Below the pieces are notes generated by a model that saw only the letters and a program-made list of their open reading frames with translations, was not told where the DNA came from and searched no databases. The translations under genes were made by a program, and so were the position numbers. A DNA stretch of 10,867 nt, from NCBI GenBank assembly GCA_027596945.1, contig JADGJH010001295.1:1-10867 (forward strand). Direction: 5' to 3'. Below are positions 2,684 through 10,867 of the stretch, piece by piece (the first letter of the stretch is position 1; each line of letters begins with the position of its first letter). The stretch comes from Physocladia obscura (lineage: Eukaryota; Chytridiomycota; Chytridiomycetes; Chytridiales; Chytriomycetaceae).

Positions 2684-3501
2684 ATGTTGACAAAAAAGGC
2701 ATACTTCACTGCATACTCTCTATCTTGTTTGGATGAATTTTAAGATGCATTCTGCAAACAATTCCAGAAAGTCATCAGCATATTGTATGTTTGGCAAATT
2801 CTTCATGCAACTGGATTTACATGGAAAAAAGTCTCAAAACCCAAGCAATGTTCATACAGAATTCTGAAATCATGTGGTTCACATGTAAGTTAAACTCACT
2901 TGATTGGTTGTGACACAATATTGTATTCTTGGACAAAATGTCATTTGATACTTACAAAATGCTAAGATGAACAAGGATATGCTCTGAAAGAAAAGAAGCT
3001 ATATTTAAGAGGGGAGTACTTGGGACTTTGTTGCATCTCACTTCTTTGTTCCATCCATAGTATGGGAGTACTTGAAATATACCAAACAGAAGGCACATTC
3101 AACAAGAAGAAACTCACTAATCACTGTCTAAACATGGTAACCAAGCACAAGGTGGCTGTAATTCTGTCTGGATTCTTGACAGAGCAATGATTCATCAATC
3201 TGCCAAACTGGTCCATCAACTGACATCTGCTGGAATTGTTCTAATAATTCTCCCTGCTTACTGTCCATTCTATAATCCAATAGATGTGATTTTCAGAATG
3301 CTTAAATCCAGACTTTGACAGAACTACAAGGAAGACAGAGTAAATGCAAAGAATCTTCATCTAGTCATATTGTTTGCTGTAATTAAATATCAAAATTTTG
3401 ATAAGAAGCCTGTCTTTTGACATTGTAGTTATCTGGCTGCAACTTTATTTGCTCCTCAAGCCACATATAAAAGCAGTGTATCAGGGTTTGGCTATAAATA
3501 A
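2684..3501 (+). pseudogene. Tc1/mariner-superfamily (DDE_3) transposase relic
   Basis: A cut-and-paste transposase spread over three frames. A helix-turn-helix-like N-terminal part (from the atg at 2684) ends with VWQILHATGFTWKKVSKPK near 2785-2850. The DDE catalytic domain then starts at DEQGY (gat at 2966, first Asp) with KKLYLRGEYLGL and MGVLEIYQTEGTFNKKK. After a frameshift between about 3110 and 3150 it continues as NSVWILDRAMIH (second Asp, gac at 3178) and LPAYCPFYNPIDVIF, with an Asp in the third acidic position. There are 34 residues between the last two acids. The C-terminus continues through tga at 3316 and 3418 to HCSY, matching the usual FRHCGY ending of fungal family members with the second tga at the Arg. 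Further stops lie at 2738 and 2963. The frame closes at 3499-3501, probably beyond the original end. The copy is non-functional. Confidence 0.85.
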
Positions 3502-4187: not shown

Positions 4188-4593
4188 TTATTTAAAGTCC
4201 CTTTTATAGTTCTCCCTAATCAGGATTAACCCCAGAGACAACTCCACCCAAAAATCTCAAAAAAGTGATATGAAAAAAGAGTGATAACAAAGGGAGACTT
4301 GTGTAGGGTGGATTAAATAATAATAGGGAAGATTAAATAAATTGTTGTTGATGAATGAAGGGGATTTTGTGAAAATTTGAGGACCAAAACAACAAAAAGA
4401 AATTATTTAATGTAAAATAATGTAATAAGGAATTGTGGTTAGTGTGCAGGGGCTATTATGCACAAGGTTCTTGATTCTTGGTGAATCCTGTTGCTGGCAC
4501 TTCTAGGGGTTGTCTTCTAACATATTATCTGGTGGAAACTTTAGCATGTAGTGCAAGTATCAGCTGCTTTGTAGAAAATGGGGCAGAGAGTGG
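4188..4593. other. AT-rich CpG-free DNA, no gene recognised
   Basis: About 400 bases upstream of the ghost gene. The sequence is purine-rich on the + strand with repeated GATTAAATAA words (4311-4320 and 4331-4340) and no CG dinucleotide. I see no conserved protein frame, no RNA gene and no convincing inverted repeat. The minus-strand frame at 4525-4707 is treated as chance. A transposon end may lie here but cannot be located by eye. Confidence 0.5.
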
Positions 4594-5092
4594 ATGACCA
4601 TTTCCAATGCCTCCGACTTCAAGTTCTCCAACCGCCCAAGTATGTATAAGAGCATTAATGATGTCCATATAGCCAGCCCAATGCCATGCAACATTGACAT
4701 ATGTCATGGAAATAGCAACAAGATTTTCACAACGTTGTTTGGAGCAATCAAGAAAATGGCCAGTGGAGTCAAGAAGAATCTGAAGTTTAATTGCATCGCG
4801 TCGGAGAAAATTGGCAACTTTGTGGATCCTCCTGTCTTGCCTACGGAAATCGAAAAAACCAAAACCGAAAACAGATCAACGAGAAACTAGAGAACTGGAT
4901 TCGCGCGCAATACATGCGTGAATGCATTCCTTACCACCCAATTGATATCGCTGGAGTCAACTGGAAGACTTACAAGGTTCCAGATGAAGTCTGACTGTCT
5001 GTCCAAAGAGTGCCATGTCTGTTATATTCATGGGCTTTGAGGTGATTGATGAGGAAATGGTTGAGCTGGGTTTGGAGGAGGTCGAAGAATGA
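4594..5092 (+). pseudogene. Unrecognised coding-like stretch in three frames, probably a broken gene
   Basis: I do not recognise the product. Frame 1 is open from atg 4594 to about 4890 (ITTLFG-like helix KIFTTLFGAIKKMASGVKKN, then EKIGNFVDPPVLPTEI). Frame 0 takes over near 4850-4890 and runs to tga at 4992 (KLENWIRAQYMRECIPYHP, then IDIAGVNWKTYKVPDEV). Frame 2 is open from 4988 to tga at 5090 (MSVIFMGFEVIDEEMVEL, ending LEEVEE, strongly acidic). CG dinucleotides reappear from 4614 and are common here, unlike the transposon block to the left, so this looks like host-type sequence. No GT-AG pair that I could find joins the frames well, so two frameshifts in a recent pseudogene are likelier than introns. 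It ends only 43 bases before the TIR start codon. Confidence 0.4.
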
Positions 5093-5135: not shown

Positions 5136-5155
5136 ATGAGCGCCATAACGCTCAT
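5136..5155 (+). repeat. Inverted repeat at the TIR gene start codon
   Basis: ATGAGCG and CGCTCAT are perfect inverted arms of 7 bp around a 6-base loop. The 5' arm begins with the chosen start codon, and the 3' arm overlaps the next in-frame ATG (5154). An mRNA hairpin here could affect start choice, but a stem this short may be chance. Confidence 0.4.
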
Positions 5156-6656
5156 GGCAGCAGGCAGTCATAGCGCGTCTCGCTCTTCGTTTATTGATAC
5201 GAGTGATCTTGCTGCCACAGTTGAGGCTGTGCAGCCAAACAGCAAAGGTGAGAGATAACCTTGGCGTTCAATTTATGCCCACATCTCCTTTAAATCTATG
5301 CCTTGCCAGCCAGCACAGACGAACTTTCAGCTGTGGAAGTGGACAAGAGCGTTCCATCCCAAGCCGTCGTTGCGCCGGCGTCCTCTTATAGCGTCGCAGA
5401 AAATTGGTCGTGCTCTCGAGGCCACATCATGCACGATATCTACATTGCTTACAAGATGATCAATTCTCAGCTGTCGTTTGAAATCGCTTGCCGCCTCGAA
5501 CTAACACCCATCGTAAACCGAACCAAGAAGATTGCTGTCCACCATTACACATTATGTCTTTCTCGTGGAACCGCTGTCATGAAAGAGGCTGTTACCGAGT
5601 CTCTACCGCGCTGCAAGATGTTTGCGATTTTGGTGTGCAAAACAATGTTGGAGGGATTCAAGACTGCGAATCAAGTCAAATCGCCGCCATTGCAAGAACT
5701 GGAACGCGCGATTGAGCTTGATGGAAGACCCATGATTGTGCCAATTTTCATTGACACGGATCCGATGGACATCTTGAATGAAATCAAGGATTATCCAAAT
5801 GGTAAGAAGTCGCGTGGTTTGAATTGGAATAACCCAGTTTTGCTCAGAGCCACACTGTGACACGGAATTCAGCACCAAGAGATTAAGCATTCAAGACATG
5901 GTGAAGACGTTGTGCGACAAGGCTGGCTACTTTTGCACGAGCGGCTCCAAAGCTGACATCGAAGGTCTTGTTGCCAAAATCGCTGCAGATCTTTCTTCCC
6001 TCGAGCAAAAAGACATGAGATGGAAGTGGTTGGAGGACCGCACGCCACCCTTGTATGATGCATTCATCAGTTACAGAGTTTCCACGGAAAAGCTGTTTGC
6101 CAGACAACTGTTCCACGTTTTGAGTGGTCAATGTCAACGAATTCAAGGCATTGACAGAGGTCTCAAAGTGTACCTTGATCAAATTCGTTTGGTCAATGGT
6201 GAAAACTGGGAAACTGGATTCGTGAATGGCCTTCGCAACTCAGATGTTGTCATTTTCTTAATTTCAGAAGGATCTGTTGCTGGAATCAAAGAGGCCCACA
6301 AGAAAGCAGACTCCTATCTTCTTGAGATGGAAGTGGCATTTGACATCTTGGATCACCGTCAGAAGCAGGGAATAATTATCCAGCCTGTTTTTATTGGTGG
6401 CAAGATTCTTGATCCAAAGGATTTCCCAGATGAAATCCATTGCCACCCCTCAAGTCCCAGAATGACGACAATTTCCAATATCATCAGGAGATTGGTTCAC
6501 CTTCAAGGGATGAGAGTATCCATTTCCAAGGATGAGTTGGGCGAATTGGGAGCTTGCGAAGCTATTGTTCCGCAGATTGTGGCGAGATTAAAGGGAAAGT
6601 GGGAAAGACAGCACCAGAAGGCAATGAAAATCCTTCTGGAGCGGCTTGAAGATTGA
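5136..6656 (+). CDS. Tandem TIR-domain protein, three exons, 470 residues
   Basis: Exons 5136-5247, 5310-5801 and 5848-6656 join to one open frame. The N-terminus (about 1-75) is Ser/Ala-rich and unstructured. TIR 1 spans about 79-187: HDIYIAY strand, TESLPRCKMFAILV, then SPPLQELERA. TIR 2 spans about 269-388: LYDAFISYR, GLKVYLDQIRLVNGENWETG, NSDVVIFLIS, then DSYLLEMEVAFDI and IIIQPVFIGG. Glu167 and Glu361 align with the catalytic Glu of SARM1-type TIR NADases (the E in DWVHKE-xxx-A), so both domains may be active in NAD+ cleavage or related signalling. Each TIR is followed by a similar tail (PNEPHC versus PDEIHC, then helices), so the protein is a duplicated TIR-plus-tail unit. No signal peptide or membrane segment is seen, so it is probably cytosolic. 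TIR proteins are rare in fungi to my knowledge; role, partner and ligand are unknown. M7 is an alternative start. Confidence 0.85.
5248..5309 (+). other. Intron 1 of the tandem TIR gene (62 nt)
   Basis: Donor AAAG|GTGAGA, acceptor CCTTGCCAG|CC. Exon 1 ends one base into a codon and the join restores GCC (Ala), moving from frame 0 to the frame of exon 2. Reading through the donor would hit taa within four codons. The join is inferred from splice consensus and frame alone; no conserved domain spans it. Confidence 0.72.
5802..5847 (+). other. Intron 2 of the tandem TIR gene (46 nt)
   Basis: Donor AATG|GTAAGA, acceptor TTTTGCTCAG|AG. It is very short, but the join gives YPNEPHC, which lines up with FPDEIHC at the same place after TIR 2. 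That internal repeat supports the exact boundaries better than splice consensus alone. Without splicing, the first TIR would stop at tga 5858-5860. Confidence 0.82.
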
Positions 6657-7738: not shown

Positions 7739-10700
7739 TTAATATATTGCTTTCATCTTTTTCCGCGCCATTCCTCCCATCAACTTTTGAACCCCACCAT
7801 CCCCAAACTCCGATGCCGCAGAAGAAGCACTTTGCAACTGATATGCCTTCCTTTTCATACTATTTTTTTTGCCCTTGTCTTCCTCCTTTGCTGGCTTGAA
7901 GCCGCATTTTGTATGGGATGCTGTAGCTTGTCCCATTGATAGTCCTGGCGCGTCTCGCAGTGCGAATGATTTTGCAACGTGTCCGAGATGCAGGTTTTTG
8001 ATGTTGAAGAGTTGCTTTTCAGTGGAAACATGCGTGGCGTAGGCGCGAACATGGGAACGAAATGCGGTTCGAGCAAGTTCAAGATTCTAGGAAAAAAAAA
8101 AGGATAATCTCAATGTTCTTGACCAGCCAAACAATTCTTTTTTTTTATTTATACCTTTTCACTGGCCATAATGAATCGTTCAAACATCATCTGAATATCA
8201 GTTGCCCAATCCTCCAACGACTTTCTCTTTGGTTTCCGCGTTGATTTGGAGGCTATCGCTACTACAGCTTCACTAGTCCCATCTTTTCCAACCGCAGCTC
8301 CAACCAAATGCTTCAAAATCGCCATTCCATCCTCCGGAGCAACAACAACCCCCCGTTTCCTCAACATATCCACATACCCAGCCTCACTCGGCAGCAGCAT
8401 CGCAACAGCTGTCCCCTCGCGCCCTAGACGCGCCGTTCGGCCAACTCGGTGCACATAATCGCGCGCGTCTCCTGGCATATCGTACTGCACGATGCTTGAC
8501 ACGTCTGGCAAATCGAGGCCGCGCGCGGCAACGTCTGTACAAATCAGAACGGCGTGCGTCGCCGTGGTTTTGAAACCTTTGTATGCAACGGCGCGCACAG
8601 CTTGGCTGCAATTTCCGTGCAGCTTATAGATGCGGGTTGTGGGGAGGAGTGGCGATTCGAGGCCTGTGAGGAGGAGAGATGAGTCGGCCGGTGGAGCGAG
8701 GGGATCGATTTCGTCGGCAGATTCTGATCTTTCGCTTTCTTGTTTTTGGGATGCGACAGAAGTTTGCTTTATTATGGTGGTGGTGGTGGATTTCACGTCT
8801 GCTTTTGCCTTTTTCATCGCCTCGCGGTGGGCTTTCCGTTTCTCTATCATTTCCGCGTGACGCGCTTTTTCGGCATTAGAAATTGTCGGGTGGCCTTTTT
8901 TCGGAAGTTGTGTAGCAATATTTTCATCGTCGCGGCCTGGTCCGAGGTGGCCGTTTGCCAGAATGTGGTGTAAAAAATCAACGGAATCGCAAGTGTCAGT
9001 GAAAACTATTGTTTTGGTGCTGCCGCCAATGTTGCTGGAAATTTGCCGGAGGATTGCAACAAGAGTTACGAGGCGTAGCTTCGCTGGCACGATCACATAT
9101 TTTTGTTTTAATTGTTCGGGTACTTTGAAAGAGTTAGAATCGTCTATGTTATCGCAGTGTGGAGTCGCTTTTTCGTCGAAATCTGCTATCGAAATATCCT
9201 TTCCTTCCCAGAAATCGTCATCAGATTCATCGCCAGCTTTGTCATTGTCCTTTTTTTTGATAAAGTCTTTGCCTTTTGTTGCCTTCTTCGCCATTTCAAA
9301 TCCAGAATTTTCTTCGTCCGTTGCTGTAGCACTGAATTCTGCAGCTTTGATAAACACAGGTTCTCTGAGACTAGTTTCGGCAAGTCGAGCAACTGTTCCT
9401 TTGATTGTTGCAGAAGTGAGAATGATTTGCTTGTGGGATGGCCAACATCGAACGCGAAGACGTTTTCCAGCAGCATCACATATAGCACGTTTTTTATCTA
9501 TAATTGCAAGCAACTCGCGCAGTGTTTCTAAAATATTCGTTAAAATTTTATGTTAGGAAAACAAAAATTAAAAAAACCTTCAAATCCAAGCTCAAGAAAA
9601 CGATCCGCTTCGTCCAATACAAGCCACCGCAGATTTCCAATTTCAAATGCTTGGGTTGTTTTGAGATGATCAATCAACCGCCCTGGCGTGGAAACCAATA
9701 TTGTACAACCTTTTCGCAAACGCGCCTTCTCGGACTTTTTTTTGTCTCCACCAACAACAAGACCAGGAACGATCCAATGATTTGTAGGCTTATCCAAAAA
9801 CTTCGATTTATCTCGCTGTGATACATCAGCGTCTTTATCGTTGTTGTCACTATCAGAATCATTCGAATCATGTTCGAGATTTTCGACAAAAGCTTTTGAA
9901 GATGATGATAACGATGATGAGTACTTCAAAAGAAGTTCAAGAACGGATTCGATTTGTTTTGCAAGTTCGCGAGTTGGCGCAAGAATTATCGCGACGGTTC
10001 CCAAGCTTCTGTTTAACGAAAGCTTGAAAATAATAAAAACTAAATCAAAAATTTGATATTGAAAGATGATTTTTTTTAAGTGTTGGTAGTCATATTGAGG
10101 AGGAAAAAATACCTTATTCGCATCACTGCAAGTTGATTGGGCACGAATCAACGCGTCAACAATCGGCAACAAAAACGCAAGTGTTTTTCCAGAACCCGTT
10201 TGCGCTTGCACAAGCGCGTCTTTCGCCATTGCACCATCGCCTTTTATAATAAGTGACGCCAGCACAGCTTGCTGAATTAGGGTCGGAACACGTATATCCA
10301 TTTTATTTTCGAGATGCGAAATCAAAAGGTGGTTCAAACCAAGGCCTTTGAATGTTGTCGTGTCAGTAACGACTTCTGGGACCGCGTTTGAGGATTGTTT
10401 CGGGAGGTCAAATTCAGAAATCGAAGAGGTTGAGGGGTTTGTTATAACTGGGTTTCCAGAAAACAATGAGGTGACAAAGGATCCGTTAACTTTCGGTTTG
10501 TGAGAGGTGGAAGAGGATGGTTTGGAACTAGGCTTAGAGGACGGATTTTCAGTGGAATTATCGATATTTTTGTTTAAAAGGAGCGAAGATGGCGACTTTG
10601 ACAGGGCGTCAATTTTGCGATTGTCGCGTATTGCAACTTGGACACCACTTGTTCCCGGCGAACCCCACGTTTTTGCCTTTGTCTTCGTTGCGAATCCCGC

Positions 10701-10859
10701 TTTGCTCTTTGCAATTTTGGTGACAATGCGTTTCTTCTTCCAGCTGCCCTTAAAGTTTACCGAGTCGTTGTTGAACCGTGCCGCACCGCCTCCGTCTTCG
10801 ATAGGCGCCGCGCTGAAGTTGAATTGCATGCCATCATCATCCATCTCTTTGTTCTCCAT
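7739..10859 (-). CDS. DBP7: DEAD-box ATP-dependent RNA helicase, DBP7/DDX31 type, four exons
   Basis: Predicted nucleolar helicase for 60S ribosomal subunit assembly, from family knowledge. Exons 10859-10113, 10022-9578, 9527-8155 and 8086-7739 join to 970 residues. Visible motifs: [10 protein letters not shown] and PTLIQQ (Q region, about 170-197), AQTGSGKT (motif I, 219-226), PTRELA (265-270), STPGR (360-364), DEAD (386-389), SAT (436-438), IVFTDT (571-576), TDVAARGLD (728-736) and [10 protein letters not shown] (757-766). The C-terminal exon reads [11 protein letters not shown], then [17 protein letters not shown], the conserved tail that separates DBP7/DDX31 from other DEAD-box proteins. 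It is longer than yeast Dbp7 (about 740) because of a Ser/Lys-rich N-terminus and charged insertions near 297-327, 462-530 and 580-695. All motifs are intact. The start ATG lies 8 bases from the window edge, so a further upstream start cannot be excluded. Confidence 0.93.
8087..8154 (-). other. Intron 3 of DBP7-like gene (68 nt)
   Basis: Minus-strand donor GAAAAG|GTATAA and acceptor TTTTTTCCTAG|AATC with a long T tract before the AG. Joining 8155 to 8086 continues ASEK into [19 protein letters not shown], which is the conserved family C-terminus. Unspliced, translation would stop just after the donor. Confidence 0.9.
9528..9577 (-). other. Intron 2 of DBP7-like gene (50 nt)
   Basis: Minus-strand donor GAAG|GTTTTT, an internal CCTAAC that fits a branch-point sequence, and acceptor ATATTTTAG|AA. 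The join restores GAA and gives FLELGFEETLRELL, the expected sequence after the DEAD box. The donor is weak (GTTTTT) but protein continuity is strong. Confidence 0.88.
10023..10112 (-). other. Intron 1 of DBP7-like gene (90 nt, stop-free and in frame)
   Basis: Minus-strand donor AATAAG|GTATTT and acceptor TTATTTTCAAG|CTT. The 90 nt are divisible by three and contain no stop, so retention would add 30 residues ([15 protein letters not shown] and a hydrophobic run) between helicase motifs I and Ia. I call it an intron because of the T-rich, AT-rich composition, the splice signals and the unlikely insert. An acceptor 14 bases downstream (AAACAG) would break the frame. Confidence 0.8.
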
Positions 10860-10867
10860 ACAAAAAC

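Follow-up and report, generated by a model that had tools for sequence, protein, structure and literature searches.

A conserved protein of two TIR domains in the chytrid Physocladia obscura and its possible association with TIR-NACHT receptors

What would a protein with two TIR domains and no other recognisable domain do in a chytrid? The question is posed by a gene at positions 5136 to 6656 of a 10,867-nucleotide stretch of Physocladia obscura DNA (contig JADGJH010001295.1, assembly GCA_027596945.1; the whole stretch is referred to here as the window). A preliminary description of the sequence had proposed an intact, spliced fungal gene for a soluble chain with two TIR folds (TIR1 and TIR2), each bearing a glutamate at the catalytic position of SARM1-like TIRs. 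These claims were borne out by the analysis below. The gene, its two folds, their origin by duplication, their conservation and a module shared with NACHT genes are established; we infer, tentatively, that the protein partners TIR-NACHT receptors in signalling. Research on TIR signalling covers bacteria, plants, animals and, most recently, amoebae. A chytrid possessing TIR-NACHT receptor-like genes and a conserved two-TIR protein offers a test case for fungal TIR-based NAD+-linked immunity, and raises the further question of whether one chain suffices for a TIR dimer, which other systems have to assemble.

An intact gene encoding two TIR folds

Joining of 5136-5247, 5310-5801 and 5848-6656 on the forward strand yields a 470-residue product with no internal stop. 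Exon 1, starting at the ATG, encodes a weakly conserved N-terminus; exon 2 encodes most of TIR1; and exon 3 supplies the end of TIR1, TIR2, a C-terminal helix and the stop. Intron 1 (5248-5309, 62 bases, GTGAGA...TGCCAG) and intron 2 (5802-5847, 46 bases, GTAAGA...GCTCAG) are both of the GT-AG type. Both junctions are collinear with protein P0001 of Entophlyctis luteolus (83% identity over 99% of the query), in which the DYPN|EPHC junction at intron 2 is the same. The uninterrupted frame and this collinearity rule out a pseudogene or mis-splicing, and the collinear relatives together with both TIR folds rule out a chance reading frame or chance resemblance. Bacterial contamination was dismissed: the introns and the relatives in chytrids speak against it, as does a helicase of eukaryote-like type elsewhere in the window, its gene split over two frames.

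TIR2 (residues about 271-450; 6054-6593, +) was recognised directly, with residues 274-386 matching Pfam TIR_2 at 37.4 bits (cut-off 28). TIR1 (residues about 79-250; 5432-5993, +, split by intron 2) of the window protein gave no Pfam match, and TIR1 of the paralog P0005 matched PF01582 at 20.6 bits, slightly below the cut-off of 21.3. Alignment of the TIR1 profile with the TIR2 profile gave P = 2.3e-17, against 0.0096 for the best of 30 column shuffles. The two TIRs arose when one extended TIR module was duplicated within the gene.

The structure model was made of P0001, which stands in for the window protein (predicted local distance difference test score, pLDDT, 69.9; predicted template modelling score, pTM, 0.56). 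Its two halves, residues 72-247 and 263-445, each match solved TIR structures, and the five-stranded alpha/beta TIR fold is predicted for both TIR1 and TIR2. Among the best 50 matches listed, TIR1 accounted for 4 in one search and for 15 in the P0001 structural search. Foldseek alone, with the first model, returned 11 matches at E <= 0.001, comprising six TIR-bearing chains and five EngA GTPase chains, the latter (root-mean-square deviation 12.5 to 16.5) taken as two-domain alpha/beta look-alikes. Residues 1-71 of the model have a pLDDT below 50 and the N-terminus is probably unstructured.

Neither the whole protein nor profile A1 gave a significant match in a sequence search of the PDB (best E 0.16 and 0.1, plant L7 TIR), so a wider profile, A5, was required, which combines three tandem TIR2s with five other chytrid TIRs from the P. 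obscura genome. With A5, SARM1 ranked first (E 1.5e-13) and the best matches were the NAD hydrolases SARM1, TIR-1 and AbTIR. PADLOC matched TIR2 solely with PDC-S66 (E 2e-4 to 6e-3), a match that was not used.

The highest 19-residue Kyte-Doolittle mean of the protein is only 1.06; hence there is no transmembrane-like stretch, and a membrane protein was ruled out. In the Pfam scan of the window protein TIR_2 was the sole family at E <= 1, with no NACHT, NB-ARC, ARM, SAM or death domain, in agreement with the soluble chain lacking a partner domain that had been proposed. Scans of six tandem members also matched TIR, together with four further families, each in a single member at E 0.19-0.3 and none of them ARM or SAM; death domain and RCC1 were likewise unmatched. 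A HET-domain protein was also rejected, the Pfam matches being to TIR_2/TIR and not to HET.

Relatives and paralogs

Against 5.77 billion proteins, a search in which 6694 candidates were scored found three relatives at E <= 10. The same three were recovered with profile A1, where scoring was confined to the 7996 candidates with the most words in common. Besides P0001, these are proteins of Rhizoclosmatium hyalinum (55% identity, 95% covered) and Podochytrium sp. (55%, 90%; search figures). All three hosts are Chytriomycetaceae, and the tandem-TIR family appears small and known so far from Chytriomycetaceae alone; the word-based searches, of limited sensitivity, found no relative beyond this family and leave absence elsewhere unproven.

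Within the P. obscura genome, searches with P0001 and P0005 (27 and 26 candidates scored) gave TIR1-core matches only at the window contig (C1120), C637 and C37, and P. obscura therefore has three tandem-TIR genes. The C637 and C37 paralogs were each modelled from four exons. The public P. obscura proteins P0004 and P0005 agree with them in sequence, P0005 departing from the paralog model by two residues, both at a single splice site, while the P0004 model begins later. Between the two paralogs (L020, on C637, and L023), dS, the synonymous divergence, was about 0.53 and the nonsynonymous to synonymous ratio (dN/dS; simple Nei-Gojobori) 0.20 in TIR1 and 0.37 in TIR2. TIR1 is therefore under constraint and is no decaying remnant. 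Over the N-terminal 29 codons of the same pair the ratio was 1.35, and for the window gene against L020 it was saturated. The C637 model (L020:2540-2800) begins with MGGVNSK and a basic stretch, a start unseen in the other five tandem proteins and one that we take to be N-myristoylation-like.

Conserved glutamates in the TIR pockets

Six tandem-TIR proteins were aligned: the window protein, P0001, P0002, P0003, L020 and L023. Glu167 of TIR1 (codon 5696-5698, +), which aligns with Glu361 of TIR2 in the TIR1-TIR2 profile alignment, is present in all six. Glu361 (codon 6324-6326, +) is present in five, with glycine in its place in L023 (L023:3445-3933), whose TIR1 keeps its glutamate. In the A5 alignment Glu361 falls on SARM1 Glu642, which we take to be the catalytic residue, in agreement with the title of PDB entry 7cm7. 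The alignments thus confirm that both glutamates sit at the predicted position of the catalytic glutamate of NAD-cleaving TIRs.

The remainder of the pocket differs between the halves. TIR2 keeps R278, D312, G319 and W322 in all six proteins, including the equivalents of SARM1 Arg569, Asp594 and Gly601. The D..G..W of its BB loop and Box 1 (SYR) are both retained, as is the glutamate except in L023. TIR1 is without most of the BB-loop signature. At the Arg569 place it has lysine in all six, at the Asp594 place aspartate in two (both paralogs) and at the Gly601 place glycine in all six. At the Trp638 place, four residues before the glutamate, TIR1 has P, L, F, W, Y and Y (in the order of the proteins above).

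TIR-NACHT genes and the shared module

Pfam TIR_2 gave 25 matches at E <= 1e-3 on 23 contigs of the P. obscura assembly, and P0001 as query added 10 contigs at the same threshold, so that TIR-like matches lie on 33 contigs. This figure is not a gene count, as the matches are at exon level, some contain stops and that on C605 is only to the C-terminal extension. PF01582 had no genome-wide match at E <= 1e-3. The earlier remark that TIR proteins are uncommon in fungi consequently does not hold for P. obscura, although it fits a 2026 TIR atlas (PMC13142454), which draws almost zero fungal TIRs from EukProt, all from Rhizoclosmatium globosum, and no fungal sequence from the InterPro STIR clan on the atlas date; earlier-reported fungal TIRs were not included.

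NPHP3_N had 27 genome-wide matches at E <= 1e-3. On 13 contigs (C752, C916, C146, C870, C24, C503, C22, C790, C936, C433, C32, C605 and C863) no more than about 2.2 kb separates an NPHP3_N match from a TIR-family match of the same strand, the NPHP3_N match on C863 being below its cut-off. TIR_2 and NPHP3_N share one frame in L014 (C790); the other pairings rest on adjacency, splice models having been built for only a minority of the genes. Scans of open reading frames revealed NPHP3_N or NACHT, WD40, ankyrin, TPR and tectonin; NB-ARC, at 23.4 bits, fell marginally below its cut-off of 23.5. Many of the genes resemble TIR-NACHT (NPHP3_N) receptors, some with WD40 or ankyrin (L034 839-5000, L035, L030, L024, L021, L017, L016 and L014). 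TIRs have been reported in nucleotide-binding, leucine-rich repeat receptors (NLRs) of Chytridiomycota (PMC9815663), and fungal TIR-NLRs have been described as forming a small group (PMC10197012); TIR-NLRs in chytrids are therefore not new.

The tandem proteins have in common with C916, C146 and C433 an extended TIR module whose last part is an HCHP/SP...TI segment; the D/N-x-LLLE motif is likewise shared with the TIR-NACHT genes, whereas the tandem protein is without their nucleotide-binding and repeat domains. A tree of 20 rows (12 tandem TIRs and eight others) grouped the six TIR1s (96/96) on a long stem. It samples only a minor share of the 33 contigs, and it excludes C433 and C571, for which no confident join to the second half was available.

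Other TIR genes of the genome show layouts of their own. Ahead of its TIR, C916 carries an N-terminal domain some 90 residues long (L034:839-1183), which recurs in C146, C433, C863, C605 and, weakly, C434; it is PB1-like by eye, with no Pfam match. In C499 (L010:2011-3922) two TIR_2 matches in a row follow a helical stretch that is HEAT/ARM-like by eye and without a Pfam ARM match, giving a second double-TIR layout. The TIR genes at L012:3753-4967 and L015:2502-4470 are followed by sequence that appears propeller-like by eye, with a tectonin Pfam match in L015 only.

Possible roles of the tandem-TIR protein

The shared module and a genome rich in TIR-NLRs lead us to favour, tentatively, a soluble signalling partner of the TIR-NACHT receptors that acts via TIR-TIR contact. 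It would join clustered receptor TIRs through such contacts. TIR1, with most of the BB-loop signature lost, would serve mainly in assembly or regulation, and TIR2, the likelier enzyme, would carry out any NAD+ processing, with products perhaps unlike those of Trp-bearing TIRs. The protein may have an immune role.

Several observations weigh against this proposal. The tryptophan of the WxxxE motif (SARM1 Trp638) is missing from TIR2 in all six proteins, the residues being Ser, Ser, Asn, Ser, Asn and Asp; the D/S-x4-E-x3-A spacing noted in the preliminary description is correct but passes over this -4 place. With the glutamate also lost from L023, an enzyme is not assured. The tree leaves the relationship of TIR2, the NACHT TIRs and the other chytrid TIRs undecided, the six TIR2s not forming one group, and no NLR lies beside the gene among the 10 open reading frames scanned of 70 listed in the window. 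The P0001 model says little about the packing of TIR1 on TIR2, and the functional partnership is proposed from sequence, model and genome content.

The tryptophan itself is common, not universal, in NAD-cleaving TIR enzymes. Its conservation is reported to be strong in TIRs that produce forms of cyclic ADP-ribose and weaker in other TIRs (PMC11374754). Nor does a conserved glutamate prove NAD-cleaving activity, since Dictyostelium TirB and TirD possess the putative catalytic glutamate and NAD+ processing was not seen, their authors allowing that other stimuli may be required (PMC13142454). Given a pocket that is incomplete by known standards, an inert adaptor or decoy is nearly as likely as a signalling partner: akin to MyD88 or TIRAP, it would bridge or dampen receptor TIR assemblies, with the glutamate structural. 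Such inertness sits uneasily with the retention of both glutamates (six and five of six proteins), with the invariant arginine, aspartate, glycine and tryptophan of TIR2 and with the NAD hydrolases that head the PDB profile matches, albeit for the mixed profile A5. The unit originally envisaged, a tethered pair that self-assembles, depletes NAD+ and kills the cell, agrees with the SARM1-like fold and glutamate position and has a precedent in Dictyostelium TirC, a potent self-assembling NADase (PMC13142454). It is nonetheless unlikely given the pocket differences and the want, in Pfam scans and the P0001 model, of any recognisable restraint domain besides the unstructured N-terminus. TIR cell killers usually require such a domain.

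More speculative still, and improbable at present, is the idea that the two halves, tied covalently, form an asymmetric dimer with one composite active site, to which TIR2 would supply the intact BB loop and Box 1 and TIR1 the glutamate pocket (TIR1 has an aromatic residue at -4 from the glutamate in four of the six proteins), the single soluble chain acting as an amplifying enzyme downstream of fungal TIR-NACHT receptors. If true, a kingdom regarded as almost devoid of TIRs would have an immune pathway built on TIR-NLRs. We consider least probable a house-keeping or developmental protein, for example of sporangium or zoospore development, with no immune role. The collinear, well-conserved relatives, one found in each of three further species (83, 54 and 52% identity), would suit it, but the two diverged paralogs in P. 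obscura, one with a glutamate lost, and the confinement to one family in searches of limited sensitivity are more like turnover. Paralog L023, without the TIR2 glutamate, provides a natural control.

Among known systems, SARM1 and Caenorhabditis elegans TIR-1 are alike in profile match, in structural match to both halves and in the Glu361 alignment; the tandem protein differs from SARM1 in having no ARM or SAM Pfam match, in its TIR2 -4 residue and in the degenerate TIR1 pocket. MyD88-type adaptors join a death domain to a TIR, whereas the tandem protein has no death domain in the Pfam scans. Toll receptors are membrane proteins with leucine-rich repeats. TIRs duplicated in tandem occur in mollusc Toll receptors (PMC4929906), which are receptors where the chytrid protein is predicted to be soluble. 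In Dictyostelium TirE, too, a single chain carries a tandem pair of TIRs that have diverged (PMC13142454), but TirE bears RCC1 repeats; the likeness is judged from the published description. Tandem TIRs as such are thus already in print with other partner domains, contrary to the suggestion that the double layout was undescribed; for fungi, or for a chain of two TIRs only, that suggestion stands to the extent that no report was found among the titles and abstracts searched, a scope that leaves absence from print unproven. The HET domain of other fungi has been described as a remote TIR relative (PMC4986451, PMC10197012), from which the chytrid protein is distinct by its Pfam matches.

Surroundings of the gene

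An Rfam scan of the window gave no match. Overlapping open pieces directly upstream of the gene (4552-5090), two of which were scanned with no Pfam match, are possibly a decayed gene. Further upstream, a Tc1/mariner-type transposase piece (Pfam DDE_3) lies at 3121-3318, and a remnant at 417-1737 has two pieces with scores below cut-off, one RNase H-like (RVT_3) and the other integrase SAM-like, and is DIRS/tyrosine-recombinase-like by eye. The helicase split over two frames is a DEAD-box RNA helicase by its Pfam matches to DEAD and Helicase_C; its gene occupies 8149-10865 on the reverse strand and is presumably Dbp7/DDX31-like.
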